Positions 4,517 to 34,684 of a stretch of DNA of 64,000 bases are shown here, piece after piece. Positions within the stretch are counted from its first letter, which is position 1. Each line of letters begins with the position of its first letter. The DNA lies in assembly GCA_903857865.1 (NCBI GenBank), contig CAIOGO010000010.1:1-64000 (forward strand). Direction: 5' to 3'. This DNA comes from an uncultured bacterium. GTDB lineage: Bacteria; Bipolaricaulota; Bipolaricaulia; UBA7950; UBA9294. The position numbers and the translations under genes were made by a program. The notes beneath the pieces were generated by a model. That model was not told the origin of the DNA. It was given only the letters and a program-made list of their open reading frames with translations, and ran no database searches.

Positions 4517-6567
4517 GCGAAACCTTCCATGACGACGAGATCGTCGGGAAAGCGTTCGACGCACGCCTGACGCGGCGCATGCTGCGCTTCCTCAAGCCGT
4601 ATCGCGCGATCTTCGCCGTCTGCATGCTCTTGACCATGGTCCTCGCGGGCATCGAGCTCGCGTTGCCGTACCTCACGAAGACGGCCATCGACGCCTACAT
4701 GACCCTCCCCTACGCCGTGGTCACCCTCGATCGCACGCCGGCGTCGGGTGACCCCGTGGACCTCGGGGCGGGGCGCTATCTCGTGCGGACCGCGGCCGTC
4801 GACGCCGAGACGCTGCGCGCCTGGCAAGCGGCCGACGCCCTGGCGCCCGACCGCTACCTGTACGTGGTTAACGGCGACTCCCGCGCGCGAATTGCCGCCC
4901 GCTACCCGAACGTCTTCAGCGAAGCACCCGGCGGGTTCTTCGCTGCGGAGTCGGCGATTCACAAGCTTCCGGCACGGGACACCGAGGACCTACGTGGCGG
5001 CGCGCTATCGAGCATCCTGCGCCTCGCGCTCCTCTACGCGTTTGGTCTCCTCGCGCGGTTCCTGTTCGGCGTTGTCCAGGTCTACCTGCTCGAGTACACG
5101 GGCCAGCGAGTCATGTACGACATGCGGCGCGAGATCTTCGCCCACGTCCTGCGGCTGCCGGTTCCCTTCTTCGATCGCGCGCCCGTCGGACGGCTCGTGA
5201 CGCGCGCGACGAACGACGTGGCCGCGATCAACGAGTTCTTCACGTCGATGCTCGTCAGCCTGTTCCGCGACGGGTTCCTCGTGATCGGGATCATCGTCGT
5301 CATGCTCCGACTCGACTGGCGTCTCGCGCTTGTCGTCTTCGCCCTCTTCCCGCTCATCGCCCTCTCGGCGTGGCAGTTCCGCAACCGCGTCCGCGCCGCG
5401 TTTCGCGAGGTGCGCCGCCAGATCGCGCGCCTGAACGCCTACATCCAGGAGTCCATCTCCGGCATCCGCATCATCCAGGTCTTCGTCCAGGAAGCCATGG
5501 CCAATCGCCGCTTCCTCGAGATCAACAAGGCCAAGTACGACGCCGACTACCGCCAGATCGTGACGTTCGCCATCTTCCGGCCGCTCATGAGCTTCTTGAG
5601 CTCGCTCGCCGTGGCACTCGTCCTCTGGTACGGCGGCCTGCGCACCCTCGGCGGCGGCCTCACGCTCGGCGCGCTCGTCGCGTTCCTGCAGTACGTGCGC
5701 ATGCTGTTCGACCCGGTCGTCAACCTGTCCGAGGGCTACAACGTCCTCCAGGCCGCGATGGCGTCAGCCGAGCGCATCTTCGTCCTGCTCGACGAGCCGC
5801 AGGAAGCTCCCGGCGGCGGGCAAAAGCCCGCCCGCGTGGAGGGGCGAATCCAGTTCAAGAACGTCTGGTTCGCATACAAGGATGAGGCCTGGGTCCTCAA
5901 AGACGTATCGTTCGACGTCGCGCCCGGCGAGCGGGTGGCCATCGTCGGGCCGACGGGATCCGGAAAGACGACGATCATTCGCCTCCTCCTCCGCATGTAT
6001 CCGATCCAGAAAGGCCAGATCCTCGTGGACGGCATCCCGATCGACGACTACGACCTCGCCTACCTGCGGTCGCAAATGGCCGTCGTCCTGCAAGACGTCT
6101 TCCTCTTCTCGGGAACCGTGATGGACAACATCCGCCTGCGTTCCGACATCCCCGAGGAGAAGGCGATTGAGGCGGCGCGGTTCGTGAGCGCCGACTTCGT
6201 CGAGCAGTACCCCAACGGGTACGCGACCGAGGTGAAGGAACGCGGAGCGACCCTGTCCGTCGGCGAGCGCCAGCTCCTCTCCTACGCCCGCGCCGTCGCG
6301 TTCGAGCCGAAGATCCTCGTGCTCGACGAAGCGACCGCGAGCATCGACTCGCACACCGAGAACGTGATTCAGACCTCCTTGAAGCGCATCCAGCAGGGCC
6401 GCACTTCCATCGCCATCGCCCACCGCCTATCGACGATCCGCGAATCCGACCGCATCCTCGTCGTCAGCCAGGGGCAGATCGTGGAGGAAGGCACGCACGA
6501 TGAGCTTCTCCGCACCGGCGGCCTCTACGCCGCGCTGTACAACCTCCAGTTCGGCGAAGCAACCTGA
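4513..6567 (+). CDS. Heterodimeric ABC exporter subunit with the catalytic Walker B (MdlB/BmrD-like)
   Basis: Second half-transporter (684 aa). Walker A is GPTGSGKTT, and Walker B ILVLDEATASID has the catalytic Glu. The signature is LSVGERQLL rather than LSGGQ. Together with the Asp-Walker B partner this gives one canonical and one degenerate ATP site, the known architecture of MdlAB, BmrCD and TM287/288. An insertion of about 90 residues after the first membrane helix (about residues 60-155) resembles the extracytoplasmic domain described in BmrD-like subunits. It is translationally coupled to the preceding gene. Confidence 0.93.
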   Translation: MSETFHDDEIVGKAFDARLTRRMLRFLKPYRAIFAVCMLLTMVLAGIELALPYLTKTAIDAYMTLPYAVVTLDRTPASGDPVDLGAGRYLVRTAAVDAETLRAWQAADALAPDRYLYVVNGDSRARIAARYPNVFSEAPGGFFAAESAIHKLPARDTEDLRGGALSSILRLALLYAFGLLARFLFGVVQVYLLEYTGQRVMYDMRREIFAHVLRLPVPFFDRAPVGRLVTRATNDVAAINEFFTSMLVSLFRDGFLVIGIIVVMLRLDWRLALVVFALFPLIALSAWQFRNRVRAAFREVRRQIARLNAYIQESISGIRIIQVFVQEAMANRRFLEINKAKYDADYRQIVTFAIFRPLMSFLSSLAVALVLWYGGLRTLGGGLTLGALVAFLQYVRMLFDPVVNLSEGYNVLQAAMASAERIFVLLDEPQEAPGGGQKPARVEGRIQFKNVWFAYKDEAWVLKDVSFDVAPGERVAIVGPTGSGKTTIIRLLLRMYPIQKGQILVDGIPIDDYDLAYLRSQMAVVLQDVFLFSGTVMDNIRLRSDIPEEKAIEAARFVSADFVEQYPNGYATEVKERGATLSVGERQLLSYARAVAFEPKILVLDEATASIDSHTENVIQTSLKRIQQGRTSIAIAHRLSTIRESDRILVVSQGQIVEEGTHDELLRTGGLYAALYNLQFGEAT

Positions 6568-19836: not shown

Positions 19837-19997
19837 AGGGACGCCAGGCGGTGGCCGTTTGGAGACGGCCAGGGTACACGTTGCTAGCGGCGCCAAAACG
19901 GAGCCCACCTGGAGAGCCCAGGGTTGGCGGTATCAGGGACGCCAGGCGGAGACCGCCTGCAGAATCCAGGGTTGGCGGTATCAGGGACGCCAGGCGG
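19837..19997. repeat. Intergenic direct repeats, 48-bp period
   Basis: The 15-mer agggacgccaggcgg occurs at 19837, 19935 and 19983. The last two copies belong to longer near-identical 32-base blocks (19918-19949 and 19966-19997). Between them CAGGCGG and CCGCCTG can pair as a hairpin. The stretch 19796-20096 holds no convincing gene. Confidence 0.75.
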
Positions 19998-20096: not shown

Positions 20097-20558
20097 ATGA
20101 GTTCAGCCCTCGACCTGATCGCAACCTGCGGCCTGTATTGCGGCGCCTGCAGCTTCAAGCTCGCCGTCGATGAGAACGATCGCGCGCACGTTCGCGCCAT
20201 GCCGGCACGCTATGAAAAGGCCAAAGAGGCCGAGCTCGAAGCGTGTCCGGGATGCCGAGGCGAAGCCACGGCATGCGACGCCGACCCGTGCAAGATCCGA
20301 GCCTGCGCCCGCACACGCGAACTCGTACATTGCGGCCCGTGCGCCGATTTTCCGTGCGGCATCCTGTCCGCGTTTGCGAACGACGGCGTGCCCCACCACG
20401 GCGAGACACTCGGCAACCTCAAGCGCCTTCGCGAGGTGGGCGAGGAGGCCTGGCTCGCGGAACAGCGCGCGCGGTGGACGTGCGCGTGCGGCGCGCGCCG
20501 CTCCTGGTACCTTCGCGAGTGTCCCAAATGCGCCAGGACTCTCACAGACCATCTCTAG
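20097..20558 (+). CDS. DUF3795 Cys-rich protein
   Basis: Soluble protein of 153 aa with about 14 cysteines. The N-terminal CGLYCGACSFK is the DUF3795 signature. Further pairs follow: ACPGCRG, DPCKIRACAR, HCGPCADFPCG and a C-terminal ribbon WTCACG...RECPKCARTL. The cysteines suggest Zn or Fe-S binding. The function of the family is unknown. Relative to the four tandem paralogues 3 kb downstream it has an extra C-terminal zinc-ribbon-like part. Confidence 0.8.
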   Translation: MSSALDLIATCGLYCGACSFKLAVDENDRAHVRAMPARYEKAKEAELEACPGCRGEATACDADPCKIRACARTRELVHCGPCADFPCGILSAFANDGVPHHGETLGNLKRLREVGEEAWLAEQRARWTCACGARRSWYLRECPKCARTLTDHL

Positions 20559-20570
20559 CAACTTGCCGCG

Positions 20571-21200
20571 TCAAAGCAGCCGCTTGCCGATTGCGTCGTA
20601 CGCGGTAAGGGCCGTGCGAGCTGCCGGGCTCTCCGGGTACTCGCGAGCGAGGATCGTCCAAACCATCGAGTCGTGCGGGGTCCCGTCCGCGTCTCGCGAC
20701 ATCTCACGTCGCGTCGCCTCGTGGGTGAATCCGAGCTTGCGCGGGACCGCGGCGCTCGCCACGTTGTCCGGCCGACAGTGAATCTCGACCCGCTCCACCT
20801 TCGTGATCTCAAACGCCACCTTGACGAGCGCCGACGCCGTCTCCGTCGCAAGGCCTCGCCCCACGTGCGACGCGCGGATCCAGTAGCCGATCTCGAGTCC
20901 TCCCGCGTCGAGCCGCGTGTGGAGTCCACTCGAACCGATCGCGAGGCGCTCGTCGCGCGATAGGATTCCGTAGACGTAGTCGCGATCGAGGTCGAACTCG
21001 CCACGGAAAACCCGCAGTCGGTCGGCCTTCGCTTCCACCGACTGCGGCTCGTGCGTCGCCCACGGCATCCACGGACGTAGGTGGTCGAGGCTCGAGTCAA
21101 TGGCTTCCTTCAGGATGCCCGCGTCGTCGGGCTGCCAGCAGCGCAAGACGAGGCGCTTGGTCTCGATTCGATATGGCATCGTGCGCTTGGCGTTCTCCAC
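20571..21200 (-). CDS. RimJ/RimL-type GNAT acetyltransferase
   Basis: Acetyltransferase (209 aa) of the ribosomal-protein N-acetyltransferase type. It opens with IETKRLVLRCWQPDDAG; motif A is SHVGRGLATETASALVK, and NVASAAVPRKLGFTHEA is motif B. Typical substrates are N-termini of ribosomal proteins or amino sugars and antibiotics; none is assignable. The GTG at 21200 has AAGGAG at a good distance; the ATG seven codons later is an alternative. It converges with the DUF3795 gene. Confidence 0.88.
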   Translation of the reverse strand: MENAKRTMPYRIETKRLVLRCWQPDDAGILKEAIDSSLDHLRPWMPWATHEPQSVEAKADRLRVFRGEFDLDRDYVYGILSRDERLAIGSSGLHTRLDAGGLEIGYWIRASHVGRGLATETASALVKVAFEITKVERVEIHCRPDNVASAAVPRKLGFTHEATRREMSRDADGTPHDSMVWTILAREYPESPAARTALTAYDAIGKRLL

Positions 21201-21231
21201 CGCGACTCCTTAGGTCCCCTCGTGCGACAGT

Positions 21232-22611
21232 CTACTCGCCAACGTCCGGCGTCGCCGCGAGGCCGCCAAGCGCCGTCTCTTTGTAGCGAGCGTCGAGATC
21301 GCGGCCCGTTCGCCGCATTGCGTCCACGACGGCGTCGAACGACACGCGGTCACCACCGCCCGAGATCATGGCCAGACTCGCGGCATTCAGCGCGGACACC
21401 GCTCCGGCGGCGTTCCGCTCGATGCACGGGATCTGCACGAGTCCATCGACGGGATCGCAGGTGAGCCCGAGGTAGTGCTCGAGCGCGCTCTCGGCAGCGC
21501 GATCCACCTGATCTTGGACAGTTCCACCGAGGAGACAGCACACCGCGCCGGCAGCCATTGCGCTCGCGGCCCCAATCTCGCCCTGGCATCCGACCTCCGC
21601 TCCGGAGATCGACGCGTTCGCCGCGATGACCGCACCGATCAGTCCCGCCACGAGGAGTGCGCCCCGGATCTCGTCGGGATGGAGGTCCATCTTCTCCTCG
21701 ACCACCCGCAGGCATGCCGGCAGCACTCCGCACGATCCGCACGTCGGCGCCGTCACCACAGCTCCGCCGGCCGCGTTTTCTTCCGCAACGGCGATCGCAT
21801 AGATCGACGCAAGCGACGCCTCCGGCGCAAGGACATGGAAGTGAGGCAGATCCTTCTGCAAGTGAGCGTAGAGACTGCGGGCGCGGCGCTCGAGCTGCAG
21901 AGAACCGGGCAACGTGCCTTCAGCGGCAAGGCCTCTCTCCATTGCGTTCGTCATCAGCGTCCACATCTCGTCAACGTGGGCATCAACCGCAGCTCGCGAG
22001 TGGCCGTGCTGCGTCTCTTCCGTTCGGTAGACGTACTTGACGAGATCGATCCCCAGGCGCCGACACTCCGAGAGGACGGTTGTCGCCGACAGGGAGCCGC
22101 GCTTCGTACCGCAACGGTCGAGTCGCCCAAAGCTCCCGCCCGCAAGACGTCCGCCGCCGATCGAGTAATAGGTCTCCGACAGAGCCTCGTCCCCGGCGGG
22201 GTTCAGTGCCGCACAACGCATCGTGTTCGGATGCGGAAGGTCCCGAGGCGTGGCGTCGAAGGCGATGTCCCGGTCAGCGTCGAACGCGAATTCCTGGCCG
22301 TCCACGCGGATGTGGCCCGCGTCGCGGACCTGCCGTGCGACCTCCTGGAGGCTCGTCCCCGCCAGCTCGCGCGGCCCGTACCCGGCGAGGCCGGCGGCAA
22401 TGGCCGCATCCGTGAGGTGCCCGCGGCCCGTGAGCGCGAGGCTCCCGTAGAGCTCGACGCGAATCCGACAGCCGCCGAGGCCCTTGGCCGCGGCCAGGCG
22501 AACGAACTCGCGCGCCGCCGTCATCGGACCGAGCGTGTGCGACGAGCTCGGACCCACCGCGGGCTTCAGGATCTCGAAGATGCTGGGCAACGCTGCGCGA
22601 GACGTCGTCAT
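21232..22611 (-). CDS. sdaA: L-serine dehydratase, iron-sulfur, single chain
   Basis: Cytosolic L-serine ammonia-lyase (459 aa; E. coli SdaA is 454) producing pyruvate and ammonia. The N-terminal beta domain opens SIFEILKPAVGPSSSHTLGP. The [4Fe-4S] ligand cysteines lie in APTCGSCGVLPA, GAEVGCQGEIG and LTCDPVDGLVQIPCIERN, as in the bacterial enzyme. Such clusters are oxygen-sensitive, which fits an anaerobic or microaerobic lifestyle. The gene overlaps the preceding zinc-finger gene by ATGA, so the upstream CGNR protein may be its regulator. Confidence 0.95.
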   Translation of the reverse strand: MTTSRAALPSIFEILKPAVGPSSSHTLGPMTAAREFVRLAAAKGLGGCRIRVELYGSLALTGRGHLTDAAIAAGLAGYGPRELAGTSLQEVARQVRDAGHIRVDGQEFAFDADRDIAFDATPRDLPHPNTMRCAALNPAGDEALSETYYSIGGGRLAGGSFGRLDRCGTKRGSLSATTVLSECRRLGIDLVKYVYRTEETQHGHSRAAVDAHVDEMWTLMTNAMERGLAAEGTLPGSLQLERRARSLYAHLQKDLPHFHVLAPEASLASIYAIAVAEENAAGGAVVTAPTCGSCGVLPACLRVVEEKMDLHPDEIRGALLVAGLIGAVIAANASISGAEVGCQGEIGAASAMAAGAVCCLLGGTVQDQVDRAAESALEHYLGLTCDPVDGLVQIPCIERNAAGAVSALNAASLAMISGGGDRVSFDAVVDAMRRTGRDLDARYKETALGGLAATPDVGE

Positions 22612-23279
22612 GCCTTTCTACCCTTGCCTGTCGGCGCGGCGGCACCGCGCGGCGCTGCGCCGCCGCGGCGGCGGGCGTAGTTGCGGCGCGCCTTGGCACG
22701 ATTTCCGCACTCGGCCATGTCGCACCACCGGCGGCTCCGGTTGCGGCTCGCGTCGAGGAAGAGCCAGTCGCACTTCTCTCCTGCACACTCACGCACCCGC
22801 CCAAGCTCCGGAGAGACGAACAGGTCGGCCGCCGATCGCGCGACCATCCACATCGGAAGGTCCAGCGAGCCATCCGCCTCGTGCCACTCCCAAGCGAAGC
22901 TGTCGCCCAAGGCAGCCAGCCGAAGGTGCTGGTACGCATCGGCCACTGCAACGTTGATCTGCGCCACGTCGCCGGGCTGTGGCGGGTTCCCTGATGCCAG
23001 AGAAGAAAAGACGCGGTACAAGGCCTCGCGAAGCGCAAGCGCCTGGCGATGAACTGTCCTCGCGCGAGCGGGCTCGGACGCTGCGCGCTCTAGGAGCTCC
23101 TTGCCCTGGCGCGCGCTCAAAGTTCCGACGTGCCGAGCCCAGACAACGAGGTCCTCGTAGTCATAGAGCTTCTCGTCCGAGTCGGACCCGACACGCCACC
23201 CGATCGTGTTCGTGAAGTCGAGGCACAGGGCTCCGCCAATCAGATTCATCCCCAAGATCCGCTCTCGTGTCTCCGACAT
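22608..23279 (-). CDS. ABATE/CGNR zinc-finger putative transcription regulator
   Basis: Protein of 223 aa with an N-terminal stress-sensor-like (ABATE) domain opening GGALCLDFTNTIGWR and a C-terminal CGNR zinc finger: CAGEKCDWLFLDASRNRSRR, then WCDMAECGNRAKARRN. Cys ligands sit in the CxxxxC and CxxxxC pairs, followed by a basic tail. The family is predicted to sense small molecules and bind DNA. It is first in a two-gene unit with sdaA, suggesting control of serine catabolism. A TAGAAT box lies 15 bases before the ATG. Confidence 0.85.
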   Translation of the reverse strand: MSETRERILGMNLIGGALCLDFTNTIGWRVGSDSDEKLYDYEDLVVWARHVGTLSARQGKELLERAASEPARARTVHRQALALREALYRVFSSLASGNPPQPGDVAQINVAVADAYQHLRLAALGDSFAWEWHEADGSLDLPMWMVARSAADLFVSPELGRVRECAGEKCDWLFLDASRNRSRRWCDMAECGNRAKARRNYARRRGGAAPRGAAAPTGKGRKA

Positions 23280-23315
23280 GGCGCACCGCCAACGATTCTA
23301 CCCACCACCTGCCTC

Positions 23316-23344
23316 TTGACAAGGTAGAGGTCCGCTGCTAGTAT
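23316..23344 (+). promoter_or_regulatory. Strong sigma-70-type promoter of the DUF3795 array
   Basis: Perfect TTGACA (23316-23321), a 17-nt spacer and TAGTAT (23339-23344), with a predicted start near 23351 and the first array gene at 23400. CTGACA recurs in the next two intergenic gaps, so parts of the promoter were duplicated with the genes. Confidence 0.75.
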
Positions 23345-23399
23345 TCCGCCGTGCTGCGTTTTGGTGGTTAGCTTGCGCGTCAGAATCCAGAGGAGGAGC

Positions 23400-23774
23400 A
23401 TGCTCGGCTACTGCGGAATCAACTGTGAGGAGTGCACGGCGTACAAGGGAACGATCGGCTCCAGAATCGACTTGCTCGAGACGGCGGCCGGGAAGTACCA
23501 GGACGGCGCGTTCAGCGCGCAGGAGTGGGTTTGCCTCGGTTGCACGCCGTCCGACCAGCCGTTCCTCGCGAAGTACTGCGCCGGGTGCGAGATTCGCGTG
23601 TGCGCCATCGCCAAGCGAGTTCCGAACTGCGCCGCGTGCGCAGAGTACGACTCGTGCCAGCAGATCAAGGACTTCATGGAAGGCGGCGAATTGGCTCAGA
23701 GAATGGACTGGCTGCACGCCCGGTTCCAGGCGCTGCGGAGCGAGCGCGGCGCGGCGCCGAAGAAGACGTCTTGA
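23400..23774 (+). CDS. DUF3795 Cys-rich protein, array copy 1
   Basis: Soluble protein of 124 aa. It opens MLGYCGINCEECTAYKGT, then has WVCLGCTP, FLAKYCAGCEIRVCAIA and PNCAACAEYDSCQQI, about twelve cysteines in pairs that could hold Zn or an Fe-S cluster. The start is fixed by AGAGGAGGAG just upstream; a further-upstream start would add 13 unrelated residues. It is the first of four tandem paralogues with the same layout and about 100-base gaps. The biochemical role of DUF3795 is not known. Confidence 0.8.
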   Translation: MLGYCGINCEECTAYKGTIGSRIDLLETAAGKYQDGAFSAQEWVCLGCTPSDQPFLAKYCAGCEIRVCAIAKRVPNCAACAEYDSCQQIKDFMEGGELAQRMDWLHARFQALRSERGAAPKKTS

Positions 23775-23877
23775 GCGATCACTCACCACACGCCCTCTGA
23801 CAGGCTGGATCACAACGGCGGACATTCTGTGGCGCGTCTCTGTGGCGGGATGTCTCGAAGGGATCTAGGGAGGAAAC

Positions 23878-24231
23878 ATGCTCGGCTATTGTGGAGTCAA
23901 CTGCGCGGAGTGCCCTGCGTTTCAGGGGACGACCGGTTCCAAGATCGAACTGCTCGAGAAGGCGGCCCAGGCTTTCTCCAACGGCGCACACAGCGCGCAG
24001 GAGTGGGTCTGTCTCGGCTGCACGCCGGCCAACCAGGCGTTCCTCGCCAGGCCCTGCGCCGCGTGTGAGATGCGGACTTGTGCGATCGCCAAGGGAGTTC
24101 AGAACTGCGCTGCATGCGCGGACTACGACTCGTGCCAACGGATCCAGAAGATCCTTGAGCCCTGGGGACTGGCCGAGCGGATGGGTTGGCTGAGGGAGCG
24201 ATTCAAGGCGTTGCAGTCGAGCAGCGGCTGA
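23878..24231 (+). CDS. DUF3795 Cys-rich protein, array copy 2
   Basis: 117 aa, closely similar to copy 1 over its whole length: MLGYCGVNCAECPAFQGTTG, then WVCLGCTPANQAFL, CAACEMRTCAIAKGVQNCAA and DYDSCQRI. It shares all the paired cysteines except for one substitution at the FLAR-PCAAC position. It has its own GGGAGGAAAC ribosome site. The 103-base gap before it holds CTGACA, a possible remnant -35 box. Tandem duplication is the simplest origin. Confidence 0.8.
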   Translation: MLGYCGVNCAECPAFQGTTGSKIELLEKAAQAFSNGAHSAQEWVCLGCTPANQAFLARPCAACEMRTCAIAKGVQNCAACADYDSCQRIQKILEPWGLAERMGWLRERFKALQSSSG

Positions 24232-24331
24232 GTCTATTCACGTCTGTAGAGCGCTTTTCCACGCGGCTGACACCTGAGCAGTAGAGTCAGCGCTATCCGC
24301 CGCCGGCTGTGGGTGGACTCGAGGAGGGACG

Positions 24332-24703
24332 ATGCTCGGATACTGCGGAATCAACTGCGCGGAGTGTTCCGCGTACAAGGGGACGGTCACGACCGACATG
24401 GCCTTGCTCGAAAAGGCCGCGGGGAGCTTCTGGGACGGCGCCTACAGCGCACAGGAGTGGGTCTGCCTCGGCTGTACGCCGGCGGATCAGCCGTTCCTTG
24501 CCAAGTACTGCGCGACCTGCAAGATCCGCGGCTGCGCGATCGAGAAGGGTGTCCAGAACTGCGCCGCGTGCGACACGTACGAGTCGTGCCAGATGCTGAA
24601 GGACTTCATCAAGGGCGAGTCCGAAGCGCTCGTCCAGCGGATGGACCTCTTGCGCGGACGGTTCTTGGCGTTGCGCAATGAGCGGCCTGCGACCAGAGCG
24701 TAG
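24332..24703 (+). CDS. DUF3795 Cys-rich protein, array copy 3
   Basis: 123 aa; MLGYCGINCAECSAYKGTV, WVCLGCTPADQPFLAKYC, TCKIRGCAIEKGVQNCAACD and ESCQMLKDFIKG. All the paired cysteines are retained, so the copy is probably functional. A GGAGGG ribosome site precedes the ATG. The gap before it again contains a CTGACA. Confidence 0.8.
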   Translation: MLGYCGINCAECSAYKGTVTTDMALLEKAAGSFWDGAYSAQEWVCLGCTPADQPFLAKYCATCKIRGCAIEKGVQNCAACDTYESCQMLKDFIKGESEALVQRMDLLRGRFLALRNERPATRA

Positions 24704-24805
24704 TCGCGGCGAACCTCTTCCCTTTCCCTGCGAGGCAGACGAGTGGAACCGTCCTCTATCAGGAGCGGTGCAGAGGGGATGCAGACGTAGAGTGAAGGAG
24801 GAGCC

Positions 24806-25156
24806 ATGCTCGGCTACTGCGGAATGAACTGCGCGGAGTGCCCGTCGTACACCACAACGGTTAGCGCGAAGAAGGACCTGCGTGAAAAGACGGCCGCCAG
24901 TTGCTCGGACGGCGCGTCCGGCGCGCCGGAGTGGGTGTGCCTCGGCTGCACGCCGGCTGATCAGCAGTTTCTCTCCCAGTTCTGCGTCACGTGCAAGGTC
25001 CGAGGCTGCGCCATCGCCAAGGGCCTCCAGAACTGCGCCGCGTGCGCGGACTACGACGCGTGCGTAGAGATCAAGGCCGTCATCATGAGAGAGTCCGAGG
25101 AGCTTGGGCTGCGCATGACCTGGCTGCGGAAGCGATTCAAGGCACTAGCGGGCTAG
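24806..25156 (+). CDS. DUF3795 Cys-rich protein, array copy 4
   Basis: 116 aa and the most diverged copy: MLGYCGMNCAECPSYTTTVS, WVCLGCTPADQQFL, FCVTCKVRGCAIAKGLQNCA and DYDACVEI. The cysteine frame is intact. It has an AAGGAGGAG ribosome site. Its upstream gap has no -35-like box, so it may rely on readthrough from copy 3. Confidence 0.8.
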   Translation: MLGYCGMNCAECPSYTTTVSAKKDLREKTAASCSDGASGAPEWVCLGCTPADQQFLSQFCVTCKVRGCAIAKGLQNCAACADYDACVEIKAVIMRESEELGLRMTWLRKRFKALAG

Positions 25157-25465
25157 AGATCGCCAGTGCACCCCGTCTCGGCCACGCGCTTAGCACGACG
25201 GCTTACACACGCAATGGAGGTCGACCGGGCAGGCGACGCCCTGCAACGTGCACGCGAGACGTTTCGCGGACACGCGCCTTCCACGTCTTCATATCACTGC
25301 AACCTCGGAGAGCATCCCAAGCGTAAACAGGGCACCCGGCGTTCGCGACGCCCAGTCAGGCGACCGACAGGTCCATGCACGGCGCCCCCCCCGCCGGCGC
25401 AAGGGGACGCGGGCGGGCCAAGGCGCCCGGTCCGCGCCGAGGCACAGACGATGGAACGGACGCCA
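25157..25465. other. Intergenic stretch without a recognised gene
   Basis: About 300 bases between the DUF3795 array and the convergent beta-helix gene. It contains a very GC-rich patch (25380-25440, runs of C and G) that could fold, but no gene or clear terminator is seen. Confidence 0.5.
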
Positions 25466-26236
25466 CTACCCGGTTGCGCGGTAGACATCGGCGTATCGGT
25501 TGTCGGCAACGACGTTGTCCGTCAATTGAACGTCATCGACGAAGTGGCCGATGCGGATGCCGACCCCCGTGGCCAGCCCCCACCCGTTGCCTGTGATCGT
25601 GCATCCGACGACGACAAGACTGCGAATCGACGTGGAATCCATGCCGTCCATGCCGTTGTCCTGGAGAATGCAGCGCTCTACGAGCATCTGGTCAATCGTC
25701 CCGCGGACCCCGACAATGTGAATCCCTGTCCAGCGGTTCTGGGACGAGGAGCAGTCGCGGATCGTGATCGAGCGCACCCACCCACGATTCACCTCAATCC
25801 CGTGACCGCTCGTCCCGGACTCGCTCGATGAAGTGACCGCCAGGCGCTCGAGCGTCACACCGTCAGCATCGACCTCGATCGTCCCACGGATGAGGGCAAG
25901 ACGGGGAGCCTCCGGGTCGGTGCGCACGATGAGATTGGGAGTAAAGATCCAGACTTCCGCTTCGTACTCCCCAGGGGCAAGGACGAGAACATCCCCAGGA
26001 TGTGCCTCGATGCGGACGGAGAACCACGTCGCCGGTCTGTTGCCGTTGTCTCCCGGCCAGACCTGGTACTCGATGGGAACGGTCTCTCGTTCGACAACCT
26101 GAGCAAAGGCCTCCGCTATGAGCACGGTGCCTCGGAGGGAAGCCTCTTCCGGCACCCGAATCTCGCGGGCTTCCGCGCAGCACGCGGCGGCCACGAGCAT
26201 CGCCGTCAGAGCCAGAGCCAGAGCTCCTCTGTACAT
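25466..26236 (-). CDS. Secreted right-handed beta-helix protein
   Basis: Secreted protein of 256 aa. It has a signal peptide (MYRGALALALTAMLVAAACC then AEA), with a Cys pair near the cleavage site that could act as a lipobox-like acylation site. The mature part has short repeated strands such as SITIRDCSSSQNRWTGIHIV, MLVERCILQDNGMDGMD and LVVVGCTITGNGWGL, the pattern of parallel beta-helix (NosD/pectate-lyase-like) rungs. Such folds bind or cleave polysaccharides, but no catalytic residues are evident. The start at 26236 has GGAGGT eight bases upstream; the long upstream extension is unsupported. Confidence 0.75.
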   Translation of the reverse strand: MYRGALALALTAMLVAAACCAEAREIRVPEEASLRGTVLIAEAFAQVVERETVPIEYQVWPGDNGNRPATWFSVRIEAHPGDVLVLAPGEYEAEVWIFTPNLIVRTDPEAPRLALIRGTIEVDADGVTLERLAVTSSSESGTSGHGIEVNRGWVRSITIRDCSSSQNRWTGIHIVGVRGTIDQMLVERCILQDNGMDGMDSTSIRSLVVVGCTITGNGWGLATGVGIRIGHFVDDVQLTDNVVADNRYADVYRATG

Positions 26237-26544
26237 CACCGCGCACCTCCGACGCCAAGTGTACGGAGCGGAGACGGCTCGGGCAATCGGCGGCAGCGCC
26301 TGTACAGAGGCCAGGAGATCGATCTGGCCTTCGCTGTAAGGGGACTTCCGCACATGTGCTCCGCCGATGCGACTCGATGGGCGCAACCCCGCGCGTCGGG
26401 GCCACAAGCGGAGAGTCGAGTATGATCAGGCCTCACGGTAGGAGTCGTAGCTGCCCCTCGTTCGCGGAAGGATCCGGTCGCTGAGCCCACGCCACCTAGA
26501 GGACGCTTGTGCAGCCTGTGGTTCGATCGCCAAGGAGTTTGACG

Positions 26545-27388: not shown

Positions 27389-27604
27389 ATGAAGAGCGAA
27401 TACAGCGTCATCATCGAACAGGATTCCGAGGGCACCTATGTCGCGTCGGTGCCTTCGCTTCGTGGATGTCACACCCAGGGCAAGTCACTCGATGAGGTCA
27501 TCGAGAGGATCCGTGAGGCGATCGAACTCTGCATCGAGGAGCAGGGCGCCGATGTTGAATCGCTCGACTTCGTAGGAATCCAGAAGATCACCGTCCGCTC
27601 ATGA
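27389..27604 (+). CDS. hicB: HicB-family antitoxin, locus 1
   Basis: 71 aa with the partial RNase-H-like HicB fold: YSVIIEQDSEGTYVASVPSL, RGCHTQGKSLDEVIERIREAI and a short C-terminus. It lacks the C-terminal DNA-binding domain of long HicB forms. It would neutralise the HicA toxin by direct binding. It overlaps hicA by ATGA, giving the antitoxin-first order found in many HicBA loci with short HicB. Confidence 0.9.
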   Translation: MKSEYSVIIEQDSEGTYVASVPSLRGCHTQGKSLDEVIERIREAIELCIEEQGADVESLDFVGIQKITVRS

Positions 27605-27825
27605 CCAAGCTGCCCCGCGTCACGGGCGAAGAGATGACAAGAGCGTTGGTCCGCACCGGGTTTGCCGTCGTGCGAGTCCGGGGAAGCCACCAGATTCTGC
27701 GACACTCCGACGGGCGCGTGACCGTGATTCCGACTCACGCAGGCGAGACGATAGGGCCCGGGCTCCTCTCGAAGATCCTCCGCAATTGCGAACTGACCCG
27801 CGACGAGTTCGCCAGACTCCTCTAG
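27601..27825 (+). CDS. hicA: HicA-family mRNA interferase toxin, locus 1
   Basis: 74 aa with the dsRBD-like HicA fold: LPRVTGEEMTRALVRTGFAV then VRVRGSHQILRHSDGR, whose His in GSHQIL is the catalytic residue, and TVIPTHAGETIGPGLLSKIL. Full length. It cleaves mRNA in translation-independent fashion in characterised members. It is preceded by its antitoxin. Confidence 0.92.
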   Translation: MTKLPRVTGEEMTRALVRTGFAVVRVRGSHQILRHSDGRVTVIPTHAGETIGPGLLSKILRNCELTRDEFARLL

Positions 27826-27900: not shown

Positions 27901-28437
27901 ATGCCGCACAAGTCCGCACTCCTTCTGATTGACATGCTGGCCAGTGCCCTTGGCGGCGACGCGTTTCGGAACTGCGACGACGCGTCCGTCCTGCCGAGCG
28001 TCGTACGCCTCCTCGGCCGGGCGCGCGATGCCGGGGCTCTCGTCGTCCACGTCGTCGAGGATTTCGATGAGGCGAAGTACCCACCCGGGAGTCCGGTATG
28101 GAAGGCGTATCAGATCCACCCCGCCGTCGCCCCGCAGTCCGGCGAGCCCGTCGTCCGCCAGCACCGCTACGACGCGTTCCTCGACAGCGGCCTGCGCGAG
28201 ATCCTCGACCGCAAGGGCGTCGAGACCGTCGTCGTCGCCGGCATCGCGTCGCCATGGTGCGTCGATAACGCCGTCCGCCGCGCCAACGGCCTCGGATATC
28301 GTGTCATCCTCGCCAAGGACGCCCACGGCTGCACCGACAGCAAGACCCTGCCCGCAGCCACCATCGCGCAGCACCACAACGAGATCCTCGCCGCGTGCTT
28401 CGCCGAAGTGAGGCCCGTCGACGAGATCGCGTTCTGA
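27901..28437 (+). CDS. Isochorismatase-family cysteine hydrolase with an altered triad
   Basis: 178 aa cytosolic protein of the isochorismatase/nicotinamidase fold. The Asp is in LLLIDMLASAL and the nucleophilic Cys in GIASPWCVDNAVRRA, preceded by a cis-peptide-type turn. The Lys that normally lies four residues before the D/S-AF of the K-x3-D/S-AF motif is replaced by Gln (RQHRYDAF). Whether another residue takes over is unknown, so activity is uncertain. The ATG has no ribosome site; a TACCAT box seven bases upstream suggests a leaderless start. Confidence 0.82.
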   Translation: MPHKSALLLIDMLASALGGDAFRNCDDASVLPSVVRLLGRARDAGALVVHVVEDFDEAKYPPGSPVWKAYQIHPAVAPQSGEPVVRQHRYDAFLDSGLREILDRKGVETVVVAGIASPWCVDNAVRRANGLGYRVILAKDAHGCTDSKTLPAATIAQHHNEILAACFAEVRPVDEIAF

Positions 28438-33116: not shown

Positions 33117-33404
33117 TCAACTCCCTAGCTGCTCAGCTCAGACGTCATCGTCGAGCAGCTGCGCATGCCCGGAGTTGCCACCCCGTGCGGGAACCGGAAC
33201 AACCAGCAACTCCCTAGCTGCTCGGCAACGAGAATCGCCGAGTAGCCCCCAACTACGGACCCGGAGTTGCGGTACCACTCGCAGGCAGCAACTCCCTAGC
33301 GACTCGGCAACAAGGATCGCCGAGTAGCCTCATCCCAGGAGTTGCGGTACCACTCGCAGGCAGCAACTCCCTAGCTGCTCGGCAACAAGGATCGCCGAGC
33401 AGCC
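33117..33404. repeat. Array of two-hairpin repeats
   Basis: A partial copy (33117-33160) is followed by three fuller copies beginning with GGAGTTG at 33170, 33262 and 33338. Each has hairpin 1 (GGAGTTGC with GCAACTCC), the linker CTAGC, and hairpin 2 (CTCGGC with GCCGAG, extended by flanking GCT/AGC). The last two copies are nearly identical with a 76-bp period. The array ends six bases before the vapC stop. It could be a REP/BIME-like element or a transcription terminator series. Confidence 0.85.
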
Positions 33405-33874: not shown

Positions 33875-34684
33875 CTACGCCCCCCGACACGCCGCCTTGT
33901 CCCTGCGCGCGGCGGAGATCAAGTAGTGCGCGAAGAACGCCCCAAGTGTCCCAAGAAACAGGCCTAGGAAGCCGGCCAGTGCGAGAGTGGTCTTCGCGTT
34001 CCGCGCCACCTCAACGACCGAGGAGCGATCGATCTCGCGCAAGGAGATCAGGTCCTTCGAGACAAGAGTGCCTAGGCCATCGCGTCGAACGCTCGCTCCT
34101 GCAAGAGTCATCTCGAGGGCGGCGACGTTTTCGCCGAGCGCGACACAAACAGCCTCATTCGTCTCTCCGGCCATCCGTGCGCGCAGTATGGCCACTTGTC
34201 CAGTGAGTTGCTCGAACTCTGTTTCGGCTCTTGCGCGCTCTCGGGCAAGCGCTTGTTCGACTTGAGCCACAAGACCAGATTCCAGGGCGGCAATCGACGA
34301 GACGAGGGCACTCTCGACCGCCTTCGGAGAAGCCGTGCCGCTGATGGTGATGTCGACGAGATTGGGATCCTTCTGGTTCATACTCCGTTGGAGACCAGCC
34401 GCATTAGGGTTTGGCAAGGCTTGCACCGCGAATTTCGTGAGGATCGCCACGTACTGGGGCGGCACGTAGAGAGACGGCGTCTCCAGGGACGGCGCGTAGA
34501 GAGACAGCGTCTCCTGTACCTCGTAGGACCCCGTCACCGAGTAGCTCGGCGGCTTCGTCCAGAGGAAGGCTGCGGCAATGCCCACCGCGAGCAGAAAACA
34601 CGCAACAACAATCCACTTTCCCCACCAGAGGACTCGGAGATAGTCCATCAACTCAAGTTCGTACTCCTGCTGCACCCACATCAC
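33875..34684 (-). CDS. Wzz-type polysaccharide chain-length determinant
   Basis: Inner-membrane protein (269 aa) with a short cytoplasmic N-terminus, TM1 (WIVVACFLLAVGIAAAFLW, about 24-42), an extracytoplasmic coiled-coil region (about 140-185), and TM2 (LALAGFLGLFLGTLGAFFA, about 235-253) with a Pro-poor junction. It opens YELELMDYLRVLWWGKWIVV, the Wzz signature. It would set the modal length of a Wzy-made polymer, consistent with the Wzx and Wzy-like genes at the other end of the locus. It starts with GTG/ATG after GAGGTG. It is transcribed away from the rest of the cluster. Confidence 0.87.
   Translation of the reverse strand: MMWVQQEYELELMDYLRVLWWGKWIVVACFLLAVGIAAAFLWTKPPSYSVTGSYEVQETLSLYAPSLETPSLYVPPQYVAILTKFAVQALPNPNAAGLQRSMNQKDPNLVDITISGTASPKAVESALVSSIAALESGLVAQVEQALARERARAETEFEQLTGQVAILRARMAGETNEAVCVALGENVAALEMTLAGASVRRDGLGTLVSKDLISLREIDRSSVVEVARNAKTTLALAGFLGLFLGTLGAFFAHYLISAARRDKAACRGA

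Follow-up and report, generated by a model that had tools for sequence, protein, structure and literature searches.

Proteins carrying the DUF3795 domain (PF12675) are almost unstudied, and one open-access paper mentions the family, as a proteomics hit in C. difficile. It is marked by a set of cysteines, ten of which were invariant in an alignment of 12 diverse members (CGxxCxxC, CxGC, Cx4C and CxxCx4-5C). The second described system that bears on this locus is the ABATE/zf-CGNR family (PF07336/PF11706), for which a role as stress-induced DNA-binding regulators was proposed from the structure of Jann_2411 (PMC2954205). Both domains were found in a single protein encoded beside the genes considered here; however, Jann_2411 has other gene neighbours and no DNA target was named for it, whereas the present gene adjoins a putative DUF3795 operon.

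The stretch analysed, referred to as the window, comprises bases 1-64000 (64 kb) of contig C10 in a 2.24-Mb assembly of 22 contigs, estimated as 91% complete, from an uncultured sediment bacterium of the candidate phylum Bipolaricaulota. It holds four intact DUF3795 genes (A to D, 116-124 aa), which lie head to tail on the plus strand across 23400-25156, separated from one another by 103, 100 and 102 bp, and whose products are 55-68% identical to each other. All five DUF3795 ORFs of the window exceed the Pfam gathering score (45.8-53.4 bits against 22.6) and share the family's cysteine pattern; the array subfamily differs in adding an eleventh cysteine (position 60) and the motif EWVCLGCTPADQ. 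A sequence-only reading of this DNA had described four Cys-rich tandem paralogues with gaps of about 100 bases, all keeping paired cysteines, and both points held, the alignment table placing the same 11 cysteines in each copy.

That reading had also noted a longer variant 3 kb upstream as a fifth gene nearby. The gene at 20097 does match DUF3795, but it belongs to another subfamily, is 24.5-27.7% identical to the array proteins, and is separated from them by three minus-strand genes encoding a GNAT protein, a serine dehydratase and the ABATE/zf-CGNR protein; it is thus ruled out as an array member by identity, subfamily and place. Nor does five describe the genome, which has eight DUF3795 genes, three of them elsewhere. 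The longer subfamily, with its C-terminal CxC...CxxC tail, is also present in relatives, and in genome G001 an orthologue of 71% identity flanks these three genes on the matching side. Directly upstream of the 20097 gene, at 19899-19997, is a 48-bp repeat in two copies with a 24-bp sub-period.

Table 1. Positions of the genes and promoter elements of the DUF3795 locus within the window.
Feature	Coordinates	Strand	Supporting observations
DUF3795 gene of another subfamily, 153 aa, C-terminal zinc-ribbon-like CxC...CxxC	20097..20558	+	Pfam 53.4 bits
ABATE plus zf-CGNR putative transcription regulator	22608..23279	-	Pfam ABATE 1.3e-25, zf-CGNR 9.7e-19
Divergent promoter of the CGNR gene, TTGTCA-16-TAGAAT	23295..23322	-	-35 overlaps array -35 in palindrome CTTGACAAG
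Array promoter TTGACA, 17-nt spacer, TAGTAT, extended TG	23316..23344	+	TTGACAAG unchanged across five genomes with the array
Downstream element TTTTGGTGGTTAG, conserved; candidate operator or 5'-leader element	23359..23371	+	43-45 bp from -35, six genomes
DUF3795 copy A, 124 aa, 11 conserved Cys	23400..23774	+	Pfam 47.4 bits; orthologues in same-genus G003 and in G015 of genus g13
DUF3795 copy B, 117 aa, 11 conserved Cys	23878..24231	+	Pfam 49.6 bits; orthologues in G001, G002, G027
DUF3795 copy C, 123 aa, 11 conserved Cys	24332..24703	+	Pfam 51.5 bits
DUF3795 copy D, 116 aa, 11 conserved Cys plus 1 extra	24806..25156	+	Pfam 45.8 bits

Some form of DUF3795 occurs in 47 of 100 genomes across the phylum, at one to nine copies each, and a pattern scan found close relatives of the array subfamily only in Bipolaricaulota. 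Array-type genes, defined as close matches to copy C, are present in 9/33 genomes of the family. These comprise every one of the four genomes sampled from the same genus and three from genus g13, together with G014 and G004, each with a single more distant version. The relatives that bear the array are Candidatus Bipolaricaulota metagenome bins and lake-sediment bins. Among plasmid records only one distant DUF3795 was recovered, in a Parabacteroides record, and viral contigs yielded none. Separate rows of three or four different DUF3795 subtypes are found in other Bipolaricaulota (L048 of G020, L047 of G012 and L049 of G031), and a DUF3795 pair lies on the Eisenbacteria contig L093.

The duplications that built the array are old, as the DNA repeat units of about 300 nt are 70-75% identical in register and the gaps between copies align at the ribosome-binding site but not beyond. 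In the protein tree copy A clusters with genes from G003 and G015, copy B with genes from G001, G002 and G027, the latter group having 100/100 support on the codon tree; A and B have orthologues across genera. Forcing the four window copies into one clade costs 129 log-likelihood units (p-AU 6e-13), which rejects a recent, species-specific tandem expansion. Copies C and D probably have cross-genus orthologues as well, with tree support that is weak owing to the shortness of the proteins. The best matches of C are in G001 (88-89%), followed by G027 and G002 (76-79%), and D, the most diverged of the four, has CPSY.TTV in common with the gene in third position in both G002 and G027, a weakly supported grouping which the tree analysis does not reject.

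Gene order is B-C-D in G002 and G027, B-C in G001 and A-C in G015, with A at a contig end in G003. The array is thus present in close relatives, whose possible lack of it had been put forward as the observation that would count against the earlier claim, though there it has two or three copies, some of them decayed. In G027 a truncated DUF3795 remnant, equipped with a ribosome-binding site of its own, lies between B and C (L041, about 4611-4700) and G015 has one frameshifted copy, either of which could be an assembly error. With A missing from G001 and G002 and damaged copies in G015 and G027, no single copy is indispensable.

Orthologues of A to C are under purifying selection. NG86 estimates of dN/dS were 0.12-0.31, with all upper bootstrap limits ≤0.54 and dN below dS in 300/300 bootstraps; this conclusion rests on NG86, the maximum-likelihood dS values having been left out as some were saturated. 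Copy D is fast-evolving, with NG86 dN/dS of 0.28-0.59 depending on the partner and about 0.6 against its putative orthologues. As a set the copies are not under relaxed selection, the other outcome that had been named as counter-evidence, and the claim that several intact copies are retained under selection is borne out by these ratios, by the A and B groups that cross genera and by the rejection of a window-only clade. Since its copies are old, distinct and under selection, the array is a real gene set, of a protein family that was already known.

The near-consensus promoter noted ahead of the array is real, since TTGACAAG, its divergent partner and the element downstream keep their sequence and spacing from genus to genus. 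The comparison covered the same intergenic region in five array-bearing genomes of two genera, to which the more distant G004 was added. The region contains two promoter-like sites, where shuffling predicts 0.2. In all five genomes TCTA.CC..CA stands exactly 19 bp upstream of the array -35 and TTTG(A/G)TGGTTA 43-44 bp downstream of it, whilst G004 keeps the -35 and the element at 45 bp; the flanks have drifted around a fixed spacing of promoter, divergent promoter and downstream element (TTTTGRTGGTTAG). The exact element occurs once in its own genome, so that the search there gave this single site and no multi-gene regulon; with one mismatch allowed it occurs once each in G001, G002, G003, G004 and G015, always at this promoter spot. 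Within it TGGTGGTT is inverted relative to ACCCACCA upstream (23300-23307), and the two could be half-sites of one putative operator. An Rfam search of 22000-26500 for a riboswitch or leader RNA gave no match. The array genes may be co-transcribed: C and D share 4 bp (ATGA) in G002 and G027, and no terminator-like site was found within the window array, both of which fit one transcript. Spacers of about 100 bp, such as those between the window copies, are wide for an operon.

In G000, G001, G002, G003, G015 and G004 the array has the ABATE/zf-CGNR gene as its divergent neighbour, and in G021 and G027 the contigs break within this same promoter region. It is the sole zf-CGNR gene found in each of G000-G003 and G015. 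Across the sampled genomes zf-CGNR occurs in 9/9 with array-type genes against 11/91 others, although these are raw counts in which shared descent may explain the co-variation. The serine dehydratase and GNAT neighbours are also syntenic in relatives. From this arrangement the ABATE/zf-CGNR protein probably controls the array, a link that is weakened by G014, in which a similar element (TTTTGTAGGTTAG) is kept without an adjacent zf-CGNR gene. Both the conserved divergent regulator and the downstream element are additions to the earlier account.

All 11 cysteines are present in the four window copies and the set is complete in nearly all relatives, with the first cysteine lost from the G003 copy. 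Conservation among the paralogues is highest in the Cys-rich segments, residues 1-12 (0.89) and 43-86 (0.73), and falls to 0.48 in residues 13-42 and 0.44 in 87-123, the pattern that a shared metal core under differing surfaces would produce. The first three cysteines are arranged as CX3CX2C, the spacing by which radical-SAM enzymes bind [4Fe-4S]; the array proteins are too short for a SAM barrel. AlphaFold2 models are mostly helical and of moderate confidence (pLDDT 66.6 and 75.2), and no solved homologue was found by sequence, or by fold when the models were compared with the PDB. The cysteine spacing has a superficial similarity to the SPASM auxiliary Fe-S domain of radical-SAM enzymes (PF13186), and Foldseek gave a very weak match to SkfB (E 9.9); however, profile comparison showed no relation to SPASM (hhalign probability 0.8%, 5 columns). 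The array proteins probably bind metal or Fe-S.

Taken together, we propose an operon of old, diverged paralogues under ABATE/zf-CGNR control, whose products are putative metalloproteins with a division of labour, an explanation to which, as a whole, we give a little less than an even chance. A to D would be transcribed from the single promoter, and the ABATE/zf-CGNR protein would bind the shared promoter region, with the downstream element as its likely operator. In each protein the 10-11 invariant cysteines, CX3CX2C first, would hold one or two metal centres ([4Fe-4S] or Zn) about which the chain folds, and a separate partner or substrate for each copy would come from the variable helix at 13-42 together with the C-terminal tail. 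It is possible, though on balance doubtful, that regulator and sub-functionalised metalloprotein operon form a dedicated sensing-and-response cassette in Bipolaricaulota; if so, DUF3795 would gain a first physiological context and a CGNR regulator a candidate operator. With a conserved promoter, a divergent regulator and orthologous copies, a family that had been vague can be framed as a specific regulatory unit open to testing, made up of a single regulator, a single candidate target site and a set of three or four proteins kept distinct by evolution.

Among the readings of why several copies persist, division of labour fits best. The sequence-only reading had suggested dosage or diversified binding roles, and the paralogues, differing most outside the cysteine core, may have taken on the latter. 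Were the copies instead doing the same job, with the array raising the protein level, one would point to the 11-Cys core found in every copy, the one promoter common to all and the variation of copy number among relatives; but proteins 55-68% identical that group with orthologues of other species and genera and not with each other, and whose group-specific residues persist, have not been homogenised, and simple dosage is therefore disfavoured and in our estimate improbable. Equally improbable is a neutral birth and death in which DUF3795 genes duplicate easily in tandem and linger without separate roles. The relic in G027, the frameshift in G015, the loss of A from G001 and G002, the recurrence of tandem DUF3795 genes in other Bipolaricaulota and Eisenbacteria and the rapid divergence of D are all what it would produce, yet it sits poorly with the dN/dS of 0.12-0.31 among orthologues, with the intact frames and full cysteine sets of the window copies, and with orthologous groups that predate the split of two genera.

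The proposed regulatory link faces a rival of its own, namely that the ABATE/zf-CGNR gene is there through old synteny only and that the downstream element serves in a leader RNA or in ribosome loading. The syntenic serine dehydratase and GNAT genes, and the element of G014 that stands apart from any zf-CGNR neighbour, argue for this; however, the distant G004 retains the zf-CGNR neighbour at a locus in which no counterparts of the window's serine dehydratase and GNAT genes were found, the divergent promoters overlap with exact spacing kept, and the leader-RNA part drew no Rfam family match. We regard this reading as rather unlikely. A variant of the favoured metalloprotein operon, in which the array proteins are zinc structural or zinc-storage proteins and not Fe-S proteins, is a serious possibility, if somewhat on the doubtful side: the many CxxC pairs and the zinc-ribbon-like tail added in the separate 20097 subfamily are consistent with zinc, but the spacing of the first motif matches known [4Fe-4S] sites.

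Several further features were seen in and around the window. A HicB-like/HicA pair (27389-27825) is also found near the array in G001. An isochorismatase-family hydrolase (27901-28437) lies downstream of the array in G015, G021 and G027 and elsewhere nearby in G001 and G002. Short tandem repeats with units of 15-75 bp occur at 11-128, 33204-33404 and 34456-34514.
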